Source: Acidobacteriota bacterium (lineage in GTDB: Bacteria; Acidobacteriota; Blastocatellia; Pyrinomonadales; Pyrinomonadaceae). Taken from it: 64,000 bases of DNA. The stretch spans positions 310,001-374,000 of the forward strand of contig QQUY01000002.1 of assembly GCA_003385635.1 (NCBI GenBank), given 5' to 3'. Below are positions 3,956-34,877 of the stretch, piece by piece (position 1 is the stretch's first letter; each line of letters begins with the position of its first letter). The position numbers were made by a program, and so were the translations under genes. Below the pieces are notes generated by a model that worked only from the letters and a program-made list of their open reading frames with translations, did no database searches and had not been told where the DNA came from.

Positions 3956-4798
3956 TTACTGATTACCCAAATAAACACTCGTCTGCTTCGCGAATCCTTC
4001 CTGGGCGATCATTACAAGACCAACTTCCGGTGAATACCAGGCTGTGCTTCTGAGGTCAGCGTTTGTCGTCTGTCCGTTTGGAAGTGCAAGCTTGAATTTT
4101 GTATCAATCTCGAGCTTCGCTGCATAAAATGTACCGCCGGGAACCTCGATCTCTTCGTCGATCGCCAGCACCTTGACCGTAGACACGACGTTGGTCTCTG
4201 TTCCTTCAGAATCAGGCGTTCCCTTCTCTACCATCAGAGCCGTGAGTTCATATTTCCACTCCTTTCCCACGGTCCATTCTTCGGTTGGAAAAAATACGCC
4301 TTCGCTTTTCAGCGGTTTAAAATCCAGCGAATTCTCCTGCTGCTGAATATCTCCTACAAACTGATTGTTGTTCAATCCGTCCGCCGTACATTCCCAACTG
4401 ACCGTAAGCGTCAAACCTGTCGAGAACTTGCTCAGATCTGCAAATGTCTCCCCGCCGTCGTATTCCTGGCTGAATTCGTATGTCGAAGAAGGATCATCGA
4501 ACTCCTTATCCCTGACCTGCTGTTCATTGAAAATTCCGTATTTTCTAACGGTTTTCGTATCGATCGGGTAGTACTTGTGAAAGCAGGGCGACGACTTTGA
4601 AACAGTTGCGATCCCGTTTCCGGAATTCATCTCCGGTGAGGGATTAGCATCAGCTTGATTTTGATCGGAATCCGAATTTGGGGCTTCGAAGAGATCGGTT
4701 ACCCCTGAGCATCCGAGGATAACCACGAGAAGGATCGGCAATACAAACGACACACCCAGAAACGAGTGCCCAGCTCTCTTACATCTTGTGTTTAACAT
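3956..4798 (-). CDS. Predicted lipoprotein of unknown function
   Basis: The 280-residue product has an N-terminal membrane segment ending in a lipobox (VVILGCSG, Cys about 30), so it should be lipid-anchored. A low-complexity linker rich in Asp, Asn and Pro follows. The C-terminal half has the pattern WTVGKEWKY...VPGGTFYAAKLE...WYSPEVGLVM, which resembles exported DUF3108/TapB-type beta-sandwich proteins as I remember them. That similarity is inference only. The base composition is AT-richer than the flanking core genes. Confidence 0.7.
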   Translation of the reverse strand: MLNTRCKRAGHSFLGVSFVLPILLVVILGCSGVTDLFEAPNSDSDQNQADANPSPEMNSGNGIATVSKSSPCFHKYYPIDTKTVRKYGIFNEQQVRDKEFDDPSSTYEFSQEYDGGETFADLSKFSTGLTLTVSWECTADGLNNNQFVGDIQQQENSLDFKPLKSEGVFFPTEEWTVGKEWKYELTALMVEKGTPDSEGTETNVVSTVKVLAIDEEIEVPGGTFYAAKLEIDTKFKLALPNGQTTNADLRSTAWYSPEVGLVMIAQEGFAKQTSVYLGNQ

Positions 4799-5035
4799 CT
4801 TCGGCCTGGTCGGTTATTCGTTGAGTTTTTCTATTCGCTTCGTGTATGCGATCTAAACCCCTGCGGACTTCTTCATTTGCGCAAACTTACTGCCTAAACC
4901 TTAAAAACACAAGAAATTTGACCTGACCGATTGAGCTGGTTCCGTTCGAATTCTGGTATTCCCGGCTTTTCAAAGGTCGCGATTTCGTTTTTTCAGTGTA
5001 TGAGGGGCCGACGCCAGGCATCCTCCCGAATTACC

Positions 5036-5180
5036 CACCACGATCAATCCATCGCCGCTGCCCCTGAAAGCGCGCCCCAGCTGACGCCATCTGTCGATAA
5101 ACGGATCAGTGAGCGTGGGGTACTACCCGTCCTCAGTCTTCAATCGATTATACTGTTCCGAATTGTCCGTTAGACGTGCC
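5036..5180 (+). repeat. Duplicated upstream unit, copy A (with -10 box)
   Basis: This stretch matches 6245-6395 over its whole length. Shared blocks are CGATCAATCCATCGC, GAAAGCGCGCCC, AGCTGACGCC, CAG.GAG, then AGTCTT.AATCGA.TATACTGTT and TGTC...TAG.C.TGCCA. A shorter copy of the first ~80 bases lies at 5908-5990. Copy A ends 9 bases before the GTG of the gene at 5189 and contains TATACT at 5149-5154, so it carries that gene's likely promoter. Confidence 0.7.
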
Positions 5181-5188
5181 ATTTAGAA

Positions 5189-5782
5189 GTGTTGGATAAA
5201 GAATCGTACAAAAGAGGAATTCGGGCTGCCAAAAAGGCTATTGCTGCCGGGACGCCTTTTTGGATTAGTACAGGAGAGCGAGCATTTGGCGAATTCATCC
5301 ACTCCGAGACAGGTTTGCCCTATTTGGGATTGAGTGGCCCACCGGAACTTGAGAACTCGAACCTTTCCTACGCCAGAGGCTATAACGACGAAGTATTGAA
5401 TGGTGTAAAGTCCGGGTCCATTAGGGTCGACTTTCGGCCATTGTTGATGACATTTAACGAAGTATTAGCCAGCTTTGAAGCTCGTTACATAGGAACTATC
5501 TCTGACGATAGTCCGCGCATCGAGGTGTCCGAAGCCGACCTGATCCTTGAACTCAAGAAAAGAAAAACCAGGCATTCCCGCGAACTCACAGTTGTTTCAT
5601 TCATCCGCTCTGGCGTCGAAGTGGGTAACAATTTTGAGCTCTACGAAACACCCATTCGCGTGGCTTTAGGTAGGGACGGTCAGGTTCTCGTGATGAAAAC
5701 GAAGAGATCGATCTTGACAAGGGACGTAGTAACAACACAAGTGTTGAACTTCTTCCTTCAAGGTCCTGGAGATGACTGCTAA
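5189..5782 (+). CDS. Unknown 197-residue protein
   Basis: The product is not recognised. It starts at a GTG (5189), or possibly the next codon TTG, without a strong ribosome-binding site. Its N-terminal part (SYKRGIRAAKKAIAAGTPFW) is helical and basic. The C-terminal half alternates beta-like hydrophobic stretches with charged loops. No signal peptide or membrane segment is seen. The start lies about 35 bases after a TATACT -10 box inside duplicated unit A, so the leader would be very short. The composition is AT-richer than the core genes, fitting an acquired accessory gene. Confidence 0.6.
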   Translation: MLDKESYKRGIRAAKKAIAAGTPFWISTGERAFGEFIHSETGLPYLGLSGPPELENSNLSYARGYNDEVLNGVKSGSIRVDFRPLLMTFNEVLASFEARYIGTISDDSPRIEVSEADLILELKKRKTRHSRELTVVSFIRSGVEVGNNFELYETPIRVALGRDGQVLVMKTKRSILTRDVVTTQVLNFFLQGPGDDC

Positions 5783-23299: not shown

Positions 23300-23850
<551 letters not shown>

Positions 23851-23938
23851 TTGACCATCTGAACTGCTTCGATTACCATCGTCAAACCGTTCTTGAAATC
23901 CAATACTTTCCGCCCGCGTTTTGAGCCCGCTCGCCGTT

Positions 23939-24264: not shown

Positions 24265-25758
24265 ATGTCCGAAATGTGTAAAGCCGCGATCATCTATCCC
24301 CACCAGCTTTTCAGATCGAATCCTGCCCTAGAGGTTGTCGAGCTTGTATTCCTTGTTGAGGACTCTCTGTTCTTCAAGCAGTTCAAGTTTCATAAGAAAA
24401 AGTTGATCCTTCACAGGGCAGCGATGAAAGCATACGAGTCGACTATCAACGATCAGGTATCAAAGATCAGGTATGTTGAAGCGGAAGAGATCGAAGAAAC
24501 CGGCGACCTCGGCGGGATTCTAAAAGGAGAAGGGGTCTCGAACGTTCGGTATGTGGACCCCGTCGACGACTGGCTTGAGACGCGGCTTCTCGAAGGCCTG
24601 AATGAAGAGGATATTGAATACGAGAAGTTAGATTCCCCAATGTTCTTCAATTCAAGTGAGCGTATTGAAGCCTACTTTGAGGGCCGTGATTCGTACTTTC
24701 TGACCAGTTTCTATAAGCAAGAACGCGAGCGTCTAGACATCCTAATGGACAATTCCGGCGAGCCGATCGGTGGAAAGCTGACGTTCGACACTGACAACCG
24801 CAAGAAGCTGCCGAAGAACATCGATCTGCCTCCGATCAAACCGGCACCAGAGAACGAATGGGTCGATGAAGCCGTGAGCTACGTGAAAGAGAAGTTTGGC
24901 GACAATTACGGAAGCGCCGAAGACTTCTTCTATCCCGTGACGTTTGAGGACGCAGAGAACTGGCTTGATCAGTTCATCGACGAGAGGCTTGAGAGATTCG
25001 GACCGTACCAGGATGCGATAGCCAAAGAGGAGCGATTCCTGTTTCACAGCGTCCTGACCCCGATGCTAAATTGCGGTCTGCTGACACCTGTACAGGTTGT
25101 CGACCGGGTCCTCGATCACGCCGAAAGTGAAGATCTGCCTCTAAACTCCCTTGAAGGATTTGTCCGCCAGGTCATCGGCTGGCGTGAGTTCATGAGGGGT
25201 GTTTACGTCGAAGCCGGCCGCAAGCAGAGGACATCAAATTTCTTTGGTCACGGACACGATCTTCCGGAGAGCCTGTGGAGCGGGAATACGGGCATCGACC
25301 CGGTTGATGATTCGATCAGGAGTTTGCTTGAGACCGGCTATAGTCACCACATCGAACGGCTGATGATCCTTGGAAACTTCATGGTCCTGACCGAGATAAA
25401 CCCAGACGAGGTTTACCGCTGGTTTATGACGATGTACATCGATGCCTACGACTGGGTGATGGTGCCAAATGTGTATGGAATGAGCCAATATGCGGACGGC
25501 GGGATGATCACGACAAAGCCTTATATCTCGGGTTCAAACTACATTCGCAAGATGTCGGACTACGGGGAGGGCGATTGGTCGAAGATTTGGGACGGGCTGT
25601 ACTGGCGTTTTATCGACAAACACAAGGAGTTCTTCAAATCGAATCCAAGGCTTCAGATGATGCCCCGGATGCTGGAGAAAATGGACGAATCCCGAAGAAA
25701 CGACTTGTTCAATTCTGCTGAAGACTTTTTGGAATCATTCCACGGCTTGCCCGATTGA
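24265..25758 (+). CDS. Photolyase-related protein (PhrB/FeS-BCP family) lacking the Fe-S cysteines
   Basis: The 497 residues match the deoxyribodipyrimidine photolyase-related family, which uses FAD and blue light to repair (6-4) photoproducts. The N-terminal antenna domain starts IIYPHQLF, and conserved blocks VIGWREFMRGVY, HHIERLMILGNFM and NVYGMSQYADGG are present. In the PhrB branch an MSDYC..C segment and two other cysteines hold a 4Fe-4S cluster. Here that segment reads MSDYGEGDWSKIWDGLYW (about 430-447), and the whole chain has only two cysteines (residue 5 and an NCG near 273). It therefore cannot bind the usual cluster. The start may also be the GTG at 24262. Confidence 0.9.
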   Translation: MSEMCKAAIIYPHQLFRSNPALEVVELVFLVEDSLFFKQFKFHKKKLILHRAAMKAYESTINDQVSKIRYVEAEEIEETGDLGGILKGEGVSNVRYVDPVDDWLETRLLEGLNEEDIEYEKLDSPMFFNSSERIEAYFEGRDSYFLTSFYKQERERLDILMDNSGEPIGGKLTFDTDNRKKLPKNIDLPPIKPAPENEWVDEAVSYVKEKFGDNYGSAEDFFYPVTFEDAENWLDQFIDERLERFGPYQDAIAKEERFLFHSVLTPMLNCGLLTPVQVVDRVLDHAESEDLPLNSLEGFVRQVIGWREFMRGVYVEAGRKQRTSNFFGHGHDLPESLWSGNTGIDPVDDSIRSLLETGYSHHIERLMILGNFMVLTEINPDEVYRWFMTMYIDAYDWVMVPNVYGMSQYADGGMITTKPYISGSNYIRKMSDYGEGDWSKIWDGLYWRFIDKHKEFFKSNPRLQMMPRMLEKMDESRRNDLFNSAEDFLESFHGLPD

Positions 25759-29399: not shown

Positions 29400-30120
29400 A
29401 ATGGTGAAACGTAAATCGTGAATAGAGAAGAGATCAGTACCGGGAGCAGTAGCGACCGGTATATGGGGTGTTTACCGCAAAGGCGCGGAGGCGCAAAGGT
29501 TTTTGGGAAAACACCGACTGTGAATAGTTCAAAGTTTCAGGTTCAAAGTTCCAGGTTTGTGGTCGGCACCCCACATTCATATTACCTTGCGCCTCCGCGC
29601 CTTTGCGGTTAATCCAGGTTGGGCCGGTCGCTACTGCTCCCGGTTCTGATCTCTTCTCTATTCACGATTCACGATTCACGATTCTCCATTCTCCATTCAC
29701 GAATATCTGTTATGCCCGTCGCTAGCGCTCCGGGTTCAGATTGTGCCGGTCGCTACCGCTCCCGGTACTGTTTCTTCACCATTCACAATTCACCATTCAC
29801 AATTCACCATTCACGAATATCTGTTATGCCCGTCGCTGGCGCTCCGGGTTCAGATGATCCCGGTCGCTACCGCTCCCGGTACTGATTTCCTCTCTATTCA
29901 CTATTCACGATTCACTATTCACGATTCACCATTCACGAATATCTGTTATGCCCGTCGCTGGCGCTCCGGGTTCAGATTGTGCCGGTCGCTACCGGTACTG
30001 ATTTCTTCACCATTCACAATTCACGATTCATCATTCACCATTCACCATTCACAATTCACGATTTACCATTCACCATTCACCATTCACGATTCACGATTTA
30101 CGATTCACCATTCACGATCG
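29400..30120. repeat. Dense repeat region: ATTCACG heptamers, REP pairs and a MITE-2 copy
   Basis: The 760-bp gap is wholly repeats. A ~136-base element with ACCGCAAAGGCGCGGAGG ends lies at about 29474-29609. REP type A/B pairs occur at about 29622, 29710-29768, 29825-29884 and 29947-30001. Arrays of 7-base units (ATTCACG, ATTCACC, ATTCTCC) lie at about 29661-29704, 29775-29815, 29895-29940 and 30010-30118. A ~120-base unit made of array, REP A and REP B is present about three times in tandem. The last array ends at the dnaE2 stop. Confidence 0.85.
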
Positions 30121-30121
30121 A

Positions 30122-33100
30122 CTAGTGAAAATCATGCGACTCCCCGTAAAGACTTATAAATGACAGCCGCTCGAAGTACATTCCCTTCACAAGCGTCTGG
30201 ATGCCGTTGTTCTCCACCTGTCCCTTTATAAGAAGATACGGGCTCTCGATTATCGTCTGTCTGAACTTGTCGAAAATGTCCGGCATCACGATAAAGTTCG
30301 ATATCCCCATCTCGTCCTCGAGGCTTATGAATAGCACTCCTTTCGCAGTGCCCGGCCGCTGACGGCAGATAACCGCTCCGGCGACCGACACAAGCGACCT
30401 TCTCTTTCTTCTTGTCACCTCTTCCGACGATAGTATCCCTTTTCTGTTCAGCGCGTCGCGGATAAGCGCCATCGGATGGCGTTTTACCGTGAGGCCCGTG
30501 ACCGAGAAGTCCGCGTGAAGGTTCTCCAACTCGTTCATCAGGGGCAGAGGCGAACGCTTCGGCCTCTCGCGCAGGTTCTTCAACAGAGGCCCGACCTTCT
30601 GTATTTCGCGCTCCGCATCCCACAAGGAGCCCCGCCGGTCCTTGCCGAACGTCAATGCCCCCGCCAAAGAAAGCTGCCGTATCTCGCGCTTGTTTATCGA
30701 GGGCACACGCGCCAGAAGATCGGCGATTCCCCCGAACGGCCCGCTCCGTTTCCGCTCCTCCTCGATCTCGAGCCCCGTGCTCTTCCGCAGGCCCTTTACA
30801 TACATCAGGCCGATCCGTATCAGCGGCTTCTTCTGCGGCCCCTCAAGCGAACACAGGTAATCGGAAGATTGTATGTCGATCGGCAGAAATTCCTGCCCGT
30901 GCCGCTCAGCATCCTTGATCAGCGTCGCCGGCGAATAAAAACCCATCGGCTGATTGTTCAGCAACCCGGTCGTGAACGCTGCCAGATAATGGCACTTCAG
31001 GTAAGCGCTGGCGTATGTGATCAGCGCAAAGCTCGCCGCGTGCGATTCCGGGAATCCATAGATCGCGAACGAGTTGACCGCCTTGGCGATCTTCTCCTGC
31101 GTCGCCTCGTTGATACCGTTCCGCTTCATCCCCTCCATAAGCCGCGCGGTGATCTCCGGAACCTTTTTGTCCGCCCGCTTGAAACCGAATGCACGGCGCA
31201 GTTCCTCCGCCTCGCCGCCCGAAAAATCGGCGGCGACCATCGCGATCTTCAGAAGCTGTTCCTGAAAAAGCGGGACACCGAGCGTCTTCTGCAGGATCGG
31301 CTTGAGCCTCGGGTCCATATAATCGACGTTCTCCTGGCCAAGCCGCCTGCGGACATACGGCCCGTACATCTGTCCGACGATCGGACCGGGGCGTATGATC
31401 GCGACCTGCACCACGAGATCGTAAAACTTCGTCGGCAGTGTCTTTGGCAGAGAGCTCATCTGCGCGCGGCTTTCGACCTGGAACAGCCCGACCGTGTCCG
31501 CCTTCTGCAGCGTCTTGTAAACAAGCGGATCGTCCTTGGGGATCGTCGCCAGATCGACCTCTTCGCCGTGATGATCGCGCACGAGATTTACCGTGTCGCG
31601 GACCGCGGCGAGCATTCCAAGGCCCAGCAGATCGACCTTGATGATCCCGACGTTGGCGCAGTCGTCCTTGTCCCACTGGACGACGACGCGGCCGGGCATC
31701 GTGGCGGGCTCGAGCGGAACAACGTGGTCGAGCTTTCCTTTGAAGACGATCATCCCGCCGGAATGCTGGCCGAGGTGGCGGGGATAATCCTGTATCCGCT
31801 CGACAAGCTCGGCGAACTTCGCGATCCGTTTGCTGACACCCAGGTCAGAATTCTCGCGTAGCCTTTCGAAGAAATCGCCGTCCGAATGCCTGAAATGCGA
31901 GGCGAGCTTTGCAAGCTTACCTACCTGTTCCTCCGGGATCTCGAACACCTTTCCGGTCTCGCGGATCGCCGAGCGCTGACGGTAAGTGATGATGTTGGCT
32001 GTCATCGCGGCGCCGTGCTCGCCGTACTTTTGATAGAGATACTGGATAGCGAGCTCGCGGTCGGGCCCGCTCGGAAGGTCCAGATCGATATCCGGACACT
32101 CTTCGCGCTCTTCGGAAAGAAACCGTTCGAACAGAAGATCGCTCGTCGCCGGATCGACCGCGGTTATGCCGAGCACGTAGCAGACCGCACTGTTCGCCGC
32201 CGAACCTCGGCCCTGGACGAGTATGTCGTGGCGGCGGCAGAAATCGACGATATCCCATACAACGAGGAAATATCCGCACAGATCGAGCTTTTCGATCATA
32301 TGAAGTTCCTTCTCGATCTGTTCGGCGACCTTCTTCGGCACCTTTCCGCCGTAGCGCTGGTAGGTTCCCTTGCGTGTGATTCGGCGGAGAAAGCTCTGCA
32401 TCGTTTCACCGTCGGGCGCCTCGTAATCGGGGAACGTGTAGCCGAGCCGGTCCATCGAGAACTCGACCATCGATGCGATCTCGCCCGTCATCTCGACTGC
32501 TCGTTTCTGATCTGAAAAGAGCTTCTCGATATAAACGGAAGGCTTCACGAACCGTTCGGCGTTGAGCGACATAAGCCGTCCGGCAGTGCCGACCGTCGCC
32601 GAGTTGCGCAGACAGGTGAACAGGTCGGAGATCTCCCGGTCGTATTTGTCCGCGTACAGAACGCCGTTCGTCGCGACGAGCGGAACGCCGCTGCGTTCCG
32701 AAAGTTCGATCAGGTGCTGGTTGATCCGCTCCTCGTCGCGGCGCAGATGGCGCTGGAGCTCCAGATAGAAACGATCTTTGAAGATCGAGCGCAGGCGGTC
32801 GAACTTGTGGAGCGCGATGTCCTTGTCGCCGCTTCTTATCGAAGAGGGAAGCAGGCCGTCTTCGGGCGATCCGGAAAGACAGATCAGTCCCTTGTTGAAC
32901 TGTTCAAGGTCGTCGAACGTCGCGCGATGCTCTCCCTTCTCGGCGCGCAGTTTTGCGGTGGTCAGAAGCTGGCACAGGTTCTGGTATCCCTCAAGCGTGA
33001 CGGGGATCACGGGAAGCGCCGACTCGTCGAACATCGTCACCTCGGCCCCGATGACAGGCTTGATGCCGAGCTTCTTTGCCTTCCGGTGAAAACGGACCGC

Positions 33101-33235
33101 TCCGCTGACGTTGTCGCGGTCGAGCTGTGCGATCGAGGGGATGCCGTTCTCCGCGGCGGCCTCCGCAAGGCGCTCCGGCAGCGACCCGCCGCGCAGGAAA
33201 CTGAAAGCTGAAGATGCGTGAAGCTCGACGTACAT
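30122..33235 (-). CDS. dnaE2: Error-prone DNA polymerase DnaE2 (ImuC)
   Basis: This is the C-family polymerase of the SOS mutasome, copying past damage without proofreading. The 1037 residues are the usual length. They comprise an N-terminal PHP domain (ELHASSAFSFLRGGS, GAEVTMF), the palm with the metal-binding motif CPDIDLDLPSG near residue 380, fingers and thumb with VQWDKDDC and QGRGSAANS, and a C-terminal OB fold (VSVAGAVICRQRPGTAKG) ending in the family tail SHDFH. It lies downstream of imuB and imuA on the same strand. A heptamer array begins immediately after its stop codon. Confidence 0.96.
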   Translation of the reverse strand: MYVELHASSAFSFLRGGSLPERLAEAAAENGIPSIAQLDRDNVSGAVRFHRKAKKLGIKPVIGAEVTMFDESALPVIPVTLEGYQNLCQLLTTAKLRAEKGEHRATFDDLEQFNKGLICLSGSPEDGLLPSSIRSGDKDIALHKFDRLRSIFKDRFYLELQRHLRRDEERINQHLIELSERSGVPLVATNGVLYADKYDREISDLFTCLRNSATVGTAGRLMSLNAERFVKPSVYIEKLFSDQKRAVEMTGEIASMVEFSMDRLGYTFPDYEAPDGETMQSFLRRITRKGTYQRYGGKVPKKVAEQIEKELHMIEKLDLCGYFLVVWDIVDFCRRHDILVQGRGSAANSAVCYVLGITAVDPATSDLLFERFLSEEREECPDIDLDLPSGPDRELAIQYLYQKYGEHGAAMTANIITYRQRSAIRETGKVFEIPEEQVGKLAKLASHFRHSDGDFFERLRENSDLGVSKRIAKFAELVERIQDYPRHLGQHSGGMIVFKGKLDHVVPLEPATMPGRVVVQWDKDDCANVGIIKVDLLGLGMLAAVRDTVNLVRDHHGEEVDLATIPKDDPLVYKTLQKADTVGLFQVESRAQMSSLPKTLPTKFYDLVVQVAIIRPGPIVGQMYGPYVRRRLGQENVDYMDPRLKPILQKTLGVPLFQEQLLKIAMVAADFSGGEAEELRRAFGFKRADKKVPEITARLMEGMKRNGINEATQEKIAKAVNSFAIYGFPESHAASFALITYASAYLKCHYLAAFTTGLLNNQPMGFYSPATLIKDAERHGQEFLPIDIQSSDYLCSLEGPQKKPLIRIGLMYVKGLRKSTGLEIEEERKRSGPFGGIADLLARVPSINKREIRQLSLAGALTFGKDRRGSLWDAEREIQKVGPLLKNLRERPKRSPLPLMNELENLHADFSVTGLTVKRHPMALIRDALNRKGILSSEEVTRRKRRSLVSVAGAVICRQRPGTAKGVLFISLEDEMGISNFIVMPDIFDKFRQTIIESPYLLIKGQVENNGIQTLVKGMYFERLSFISLYGESHDFH

Positions 33236-33461: not shown

Positions 33462-34694
33462 TCAATCAAATCCGCCCTCGATCATCCCCTCACCGGGGCC
33501 GTTGACCACCACCCGGTAGACCGCGCCCGATTCCGTCTCGACATCCCATTCGTCCCGCGCGAACACATCCGCGCGGTGCCATTCCGCGTCCGCCCGCCAG
33601 GGGCCGGCCGCGGTCCGTATCATCTGCCGCTTTCCCTTTATCGATATGACCCTCGGCATACCGTTCTCGAACGCGATCCGTGCCCTGACCGGTTTGGGAT
33701 AACGGTAGTAGGCAGCAAAGACCACCTCGCCTGCCTTTTCGTCAAACTCGCGTGTCAGAGGCGAAAGGTTCTCGGTCATCGAGAACGGCCGGCTCCACGA
33801 ATCCCGAAGCCTCGGCACGCCTATATCCTTCACGCCGACCACCTTCTTCAGCTTTGAAACCACCAGGTCCAGATTCTCCGGCTCAAGCACCGCGCCCGAG
33901 TAGAGATTGTTCTGCACGACGCGCGGGCGGCAGGACTCGAACTCCGCCTCGACGCATTCGATCCCGAATTCCGGAGGGTCCTGTTCGACCTTCGACACGA
34001 TCTGCCTGAGCCATATCTTTTCGTTGAGCACGGGAAAGACCAGCCGCACCTTGTATTCCTTTCTACCGCCTCGGCCAGAAAGGATGATGTTTGCGGTCTG
34101 CGTCGAAAGGCCCGTGTACGAGAGGTTCTCGAACACCTGCCGGACACCGGCGGAGAGTATGAAGTGCAAGGGCTCGATGGTCTTTATCTCGCCGTCCAGC
34201 CGGCGCGACCAAAGGAAGTTGTTGTCGCGGACGTTCCATCCCGGCGCACGATACGCGGTGCCCGAGGCCGCCTCGCGATGCGGGATTATCTCCAGCCCGA
34301 AACGCTCGACCATGTCGTCTTCCGGAAGCTCCCTGAACTCGCCAAGCGTGACTATTCCCCACGCGTCCATCAGCTCGCGGAACTCGCGGTCGGCATCGAG
34401 CGCGTCGACCGGGATCTCTTCCAGCTCTTTCGGGTCCTCGGCGGTGGCAAAGCTGACTCCTTCGCGATGACGCGCGAGCATAAGCGCCGCGGCGGCGTTG
34501 TCGGAAACTCCGATCGCCTTGTATGCGCCTTCGCTGAATATCTCTTCGGCCAGCCGTCTCGCTTTCCTCTCAGCGCTTCCGGTTATGTCAAAGATCAGCA
34601 TCCGCGGCCCTACGATCTCTATGTTGGGCGAATGCCCCCGCGCCGCCTCAAGCGCCTGAGAATTGTCTGACTTTGATCGGATCGCGATGTACAT
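33462..34694 (-). CDS. imuB: ImuB, Y-family polymerase-like mutasome subunit
   Basis: The 410 residues are taken from the ATG at 34694, which matches the family start (MYIAI); the open frame runs to 34742 through repeat sequence. ImuB is a catalytically dead Y-family polymerase relative that links ImuA and DnaE2 to the beta clamp. The helix-hairpin segment DADREFRELMDAWGIVTLGEFRELPEDDMVERFG and the little-finger-like C-terminal half fit. It is somewhat shorter than many ImuB proteins. No ribosome-binding site is seen; instead a REP type B copy abuts the start codon. Confidence 0.85.
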   Translation of the reverse strand: MYIAIRSKSDNSQALEAARGHSPNIEIVGPRMLIFDITGSAERKARRLAEEIFSEGAYKAIGVSDNAAAALMLARHREGVSFATAEDPKELEEIPVDALDADREFRELMDAWGIVTLGEFRELPEDDMVERFGLEIIPHREAASGTAYRAPGWNVRDNNFLWSRRLDGEIKTIEPLHFILSAGVRQVFENLSYTGLSTQTANIILSGRGGRKEYKVRLVFPVLNEKIWLRQIVSKVEQDPPEFGIECVEAEFESCRPRVVQNNLYSGAVLEPENLDLVVSKLKKVVGVKDIGVPRLRDSWSRPFSMTENLSPLTREFDEKAGEVVFAAYYRYPKPVRARIAFENGMPRVISIKGKRQMIRTAAGPWRADAEWHRADVFARDEWDVETESGAVYRVVVNGPGEGMIEGGFD

Positions 34695-34734
34695 AATCAG
34701 TACCGGGAGCGGTAGCGACCGGCCCAAGGGAAAT

Positions 34735-34877
34735 TTAGCCACGGATAAAGGGGATAAACACGGATTTGGGAAGGGGTGGATGAACCTGAACGGCGTTGAA
34801 GAATATTGAATACGTTGGATTTATGCCAATGTAGCTTCCTTTAGTGATCCGTGTTCATCCCCTTCATCCGTGGCTAA
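34735..34877. mobile_element. MITE-like 143-bp element, copy 3 (between imuB and imuA)
   Basis: This 143-base unit is in the same orientation as copy 2. Its ends are TTAGCCACGGATAAAGGGGA and TCCCCTTCATCCGTGGCTAA, and the core is about 90 percent like copy 2 by eye (GGAAGGGGTGGATGAACCTG shared). It lies 40 bases upstream of imuB. The remaining gap holds a half MITE-2 end (CTCCGCGCCTCTGCGGT) and a REP A/B pair at 34911-34963. Confidence 0.88.

Follow-up and report, generated by a model that had tools for sequence, protein, structure and literature searches.

A photolyase gene of an Acidobacteriota bacterium encodes a member of the cluster-free clade of the prokaryotic (6-4) photolyase family

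Introduction

The four cysteines that bind the [4Fe-4S] cluster of FeS-BCP photolyases were stated in 2011 to be completely conserved (PMC3204975), a statement that later work corrected. In 2015, 7% of 464 homologs were reported to be without them (PMC4619345). In 2022, 110 sequences were divided into seven subgroups, and only subgroup M, with 20 members including Prochlorococcus PromaPL, was described as being without the four cysteines (PMC9178010). The cluster is also described as absent from Phr2, the picocyanobacterial counterpart of PromaPL, for which CPD repair was suggested (PMC9426592). According to structural work published in 2025, several orthologs miss the cysteines and the function of the cluster is still elusive (PMC12082625). 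Cysteine mutants of Agrobacterium PhrB were reported to be insoluble (PMC4619345), and cluster-free proteins must therefore keep their fold by other means.

Other functional sites of the family have been described as well. In PhrB, His366 is essential for repair, Tyr424 is essential for lesion binding and Tyr430 is helpful, while Trp342 and Trp390 are electron carriers; the same source states that cluster-lacking homologs are without Tyr460 and have no Tyr at position 437 (PMC4619345). Mg2+ was proposed to bind at an Asp pair, D178/D253 in the Caulobacter protein (PMC12082625). The pocket for the DMRL antenna was defined by Asp10, Glu37, Ile51 and a Y-V-x-H motif in the D loop (PMC9178010). 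Here we compare with these proteins a photolyase gene found in the window, which is the whole stretch of 64,000 nucleotides of genomic DNA that was analysed.

Results

The photolyase ORF starts with an ATG at position 24265 of the window, its stop codon ends at 25758, and it encodes 497 amino acids. The features referred to below are as follows.

24265..25758, + strand: predicted cluster-free prokaryotic (6-4) photolyase, 497 aa, with PF04244 DPRP domain and helical FAD domain
24289..24933, + strand: N-terminal DPRP domain (PhrB-like, antenna-binding type), residues 9-223 (Pfam PF04244, E=1.8e-51)
25300..25302, + strand: Pro346, at the position of PhrB ligand Cys350; Pro in 115/116 cluster-free rows
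25345..25350, + strand: His361-His362, equivalents of PhrB His365 and catalytic His366
25522..25542, + strand: Tyr420 and Tyr426, corresponding to lesion-binding Tyr424 and to Tyr430 of PhrB
25552..25605, + strand: MSDY-GEGD-W438SKIW442-DGLYW, short substitute for the CxxC...C cluster loop; predicted loop followed by helix 437-452

A sequence-only reading of this gene had proposed that the protein matches the PhrB family throughout, and the domain, phmmer and fold matches bore this out from end to end. Besides the DPRP domain, a photolyase FAD domain was recognized by FAD_binding_7, weakly and just below its cut-off (5e-06; 26.5 bits against a Pfam cut-off of 27). A phmmer search of the PDB returned the (6-4) photolyases of Caulobacter, Agrobacterium, Rhodobacter, Synechococcus and Vibrio with values of 1e-68 to 1e-88. 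An AlphaFold2 model built from 42 sequences (mean pLDDT 94.6, pTM 0.94) aligned with PhrB (4dja) over 489 residues with a Z score of 50.5 and an rmsd of 2.0 (VIA-align). Fold and family are also common to the window protein and the FeS-BCPs of Rhodobacter (CryB, 3zxs), Caulobacter (9hnk) and Vibrio (7ykn, 8a1h), although the literature assigns these proteins, unlike ours, to the cluster-bearing subtype (PMC9178010, PMC12082625).

Alignment to PhrB placed Pro346, Gly434, a gap and Lys440 in the columns of Cys350, Cys438, Cys441 and Cys454, so that none of the four ligands that mark an FeS-BCP is present. As the earlier reading had noted, the chain contains just two cysteines, Cys5 and Cys270; neither is at a ligand position, and the protein cannot bind a cluster in the manner of the family. 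That reading had also treated the cluster as a property of the family, which is correct for the FeS-BCP subtype and not for the family as a whole. Two artifacts that could have produced the observation were considered. An in-frame upstream extension to 512 aa added no cysteine, nor was any gained from another frame, and a frameshift was rejected as the source of the short loop because orthologs at 48-66% identity contain the same loop. A search of the source genome (92.9% complete) for PF04244 found a single match, and thus no second, cluster-bearing copy.

To place the protein among its relatives we gathered 206 loci from its own taxonomic family, its own phylum, cyanobacteria (62 loci from a search that matched 89 genomes), a named genome collection, plasmids and one viral contig. 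The photolyase family was present in 204 of them; a short fragment (L012) and a locus below the score limit (L143) were excluded, and removal of five duplicates left 199 rows. In the four ligand columns 81 rows were CCCC, two truncated rows had the first Cys only, and 116, including the window protein, had none; no complete row contained one, two or three ligands. The ratio of 116 to 81 should not be read as a prevalence, since the search inflated the cluster-free set: 80 loci were taken as best matches to the window protein. When genomes were drawn evenly from the phylum, 41 of 396 contained the family, with 32 four-cysteine proteins, six that were cluster-free, two truncated ones with the first Cys and one short fragment; all six cluster-free rows came from the window's own taxonomic family. 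Within that taxonomic family, 12 of 99 genomes contained the photolyase family (10 cluster-free, one truncated with the first Cys, one fragment).

The region that replaces the cluster loop also differs between the two sets. The segment bounded by the M of MSDY and the final W of ALYW/GLYW is 18 residues long in 112 of the 116 cluster-free rows, as in the window protein, versus 23-29 in the 81 four-cysteine rows, in agreement with the shortened segment described earlier. The motif W-x3-W-D-[GASQ]-L-[FY]-W was found in 114 cluster-free rows (exceptions L097 and L127) and in none of the 81 cluster rows, and W438 and W442 are invariant (116/116). Where PhrB has its cluster loop, the AlphaFold2 model has an ordered short loop and helix 437-452, with a pLDDT of 95 for block 431-440. 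The two tryptophans may occupy the place of the cluster and serve a structural role.

The antenna pocket also differs from that of PhrB. Asp10, Glu37 and Ile51 of the DMRL pocket are replaced by His13, Phe36 and His50, and Y-V-x-H by Q-F-K-F. This remodelled pocket is mostly uniform among the 116 cluster-free rows (Pro12 in 114, His13 in 98, Phe36 in 88, Phe42 in 97, His50 in 112 and Arg51 in 109). A search of the source genome, which is 92.9% complete, gave no match above cut-off for cofG, an FO synthase subunit relevant to 8-HDF supply, and therefore neither DMRL nor 8-HDF can be expected with confidence.

In contrast to these two sites, the repair residues tested are retained. His362, Tyr420, Tyr426, Asp175 and Asp250 (PhrB His366, Tyr424, Tyr430, Asp179 and Asp254) are invariant in all 116 cluster-free and all 81 cluster rows, and the equivalents of PhrB Met410 and Leu370 are invariant in the 116. 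The Trp390 equivalent is kept in 115 of these, while the Trp342 column contains Trp in 40, among them the window protein (Trp338), and Tyr in 74. Among the 116 cluster-free rows, by counts that depend on the alignment, the 460 column has Tyr in 28, including Tyr446 of the window protein, and Phe in 88, and the 437 column has Tyr in 76, which departs slightly from the statement on cluster-lacking homologs in PMC4619345.

These residues bear on what the protein repairs. Arguing from the missing cysteines, one report proposed that picocyanobacterial Phr2 repairs CPDs and not (6-4) lesions (PMC9426592), and the same could be said of our protein. We consider this unlikely, since the equivalents of (6-4)-specific His366 and lesion-binding Tyr424 are among the invariant residues, PromaPL is called a prokaryotic 6-4 photolyase elsewhere (PMC9178010, NAR 2022), and the source genome contains a separate gene that resembles class II CPD photolyases (TIGR00591, 436 bits, below its cut-off). 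A cryptochrome-type photoreceptor that is devoid of repair activity is suggested by RsCryB, a member of the same family with a regulatory role besides repair. However, full conservation of the repair residues across the clade, and the adjacency of the gene to another photolyase or DASH gene at two Flavobacteriia loci, which suggests photorepair, make this very unlikely.

We constructed a tree from 92 hand-picked rows of the 199 after removal of the ligand columns, using a quick search with SH-aLRT as the only support measure. The cluster-free rows formed one side of a single branch with a support of 100 and a length of 0.97. Thus absence of the cluster is a trait of a clade, a possibility that the sequence-only reading had raised. 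The clade takes in Bacteroidota, Planctomycetota, cyanobacteria, the window's own phylum, archaeal MAGs and others; its cyanobacterial rows come from genomes of 1.6-1.9 Mb, presumably Prochlorococcus. The window protein grouped with L004 from the same genus and with L003 and L007 from the same taxonomic family, whereas other members of that genus and family were placed elsewhere in the clade, among Bacteroidota, a scatter that suggests transfer or old duplication. It is extremely improbable that the protein is a degenerating or repurposed FeS-BCP that recently lost its cluster in this lineage: the absence of every ligand cysteine and a closest row of just 66% identity would fit such a loss, but all 10 full-length homologs of its own taxonomic family, itself included, are cluster-free and occupy three separate parts of the clade, one change of state suffices for the whole tree, and the catalytic residues are intact. 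When 38 of the 92 rows were combined with four outgroup rows (class I-like, DASH and FAD-only), the cluster-free rows nested inside the cluster rows; this is a weak sign of loss of the cluster, because the outgroup branches were very long (5.6 and 8.5).

Several observations concern other genes and sequences. The window encodes an error-prone DNA polymerase of the DnaE2 type at 30122-33235 on the minus strand (1037 aa; NF004225, 1157 bits), about 4 kb from the photolyase gene. The adjacent minus-strand ORF at 33462-34742 matched no family; by its position and the gene order known for such loci, it may be an ImuB-like partner. The intergenic stretches at 23366-23903 and 29743-30159 are of low complexity and repeat-like, with runs of RRQETGDRRQKTE, for example, and SPFTIHHSQFTIH; they are probably arrays of repeats that give rise to spurious ORF calls. 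Elsewhere in the source genome (C1 near 1543412), positions 1306-2406 of L143 contain an ORF of 367 aa whose product has a photolyase FAD domain (residues 66-187) and lacks an antenna domain at the N terminus, an arrangement reminiscent of the Phr7/ssDNA photolyases with reversed order reported in PMC9426592. In Acinetobacter and Novosphingobium plasmids, small DUF2256 genes directly adjoin cluster-bearing photolyase genes (L132, 2375-2527; L136, 699-848). A phage origin of the photolyase gene was rejected, as 50,697 phage records gave no match and a single distant viral contig, L127, gave one at 37% identity. The L127 protein (3983-5410; IMG/VR) is a divergent cluster-free member with the longest end branch of the tree (2.16), and it does not contain W-x3-W-D-x-L-[FY]-W.

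Discussion

We conclude, with a probability of about 0.85, that the product of the gene is an FAD photolyase driven by light, a member of the prokaryotic (6-4) family and of its cluster-free clade, which presumably corresponds to subgroup M of the literature. As judged from its conserved residues, it is most likely a working enzyme with predicted (6-4) repair activity. The FAD that such an enzyme would contain would be reduced beforehand via Trp386 and Trp338, and blue light would then excite the reduced FAD to pass an electron to the (6-4) photoproduct. Tyr420 and Tyr426 would hold the lesion, His362 would protonate it, and Mg2+ would be bound close to Asp175 and Asp250. The roof subdomain, which is pinned by the [4Fe-4S] cluster in PhrB, would be held by packing, with Pro346 in place of the first cysteine and the short loop leading into the helix with invariant W438 and W442 in place of the other three.

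Compared with PhrB, the protein shares the fold, the catalytic His, the lesion-binding Tyr pair, the Asp pair of the Mg site and the Trp pair; it differs in having both the ligand columns and the DMRL pocket columns replaced. PromaPL and picocyanobacterial Phr2 belong to the same family and are described as missing the same four cysteines (PMC9178010, PMC9426592). A link to PromaPL is presumed from the clade that the window protein shares with the small-genome cyanobacterial rows, which are presumably from Prochlorococcus, and the window protein differs in coming from another host group and in keeping Trp338 and Tyr446. The suspicion that a cluster-free subgroup exists elsewhere was therefore well founded, both here (116 of 199 rows) and in print. 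The protein itself is not unusual, because it lies inside this large, already described branch, the very outcome named beforehand as one that would make it ordinary. The claim that its folding or repair must differ went further than the evidence, given the predicted fold and the retention of all repair residues tested. By itself the protein is one more sequence in a known branch; what is new is detail, namely the sharp boundary, the W-x3-W-D replacement, an antenna pocket remodelled in much the same way across most rows, and a breadth of the clade that extends beyond marine hosts.

This breadth bears on why the cluster was lost. Ma et al. (2019, FEBS J) reportedly measured PromaPL and are said to have attributed the loss to a scarcity of iron in the sea; no other direct biochemical study of a cluster-free protein of the family is known to us. 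Since the clade extends to Bacteroidota, Planctomycetota, the window's own phylum and archaeal MAGs, marine iron scarcity is unlikely to be the sole cause.

Comparison of the two sides of the family is useful for understanding the role of the cluster. A large clade without it keeps the lesion-contacting and Mg-site residues and seems to hold its roof subdomain by a helix start built on Trp, which speaks for a role of the cluster that is chiefly structural or accessory. It is conceivable, though we would wager somewhat against it, that the clade altered two cofactor sites together, losing the cluster and rebuilding the antenna pocket for an antenna new to the family, or for none. If so, the clade would be a natural and widespread experiment on what the cluster is dispensable for.
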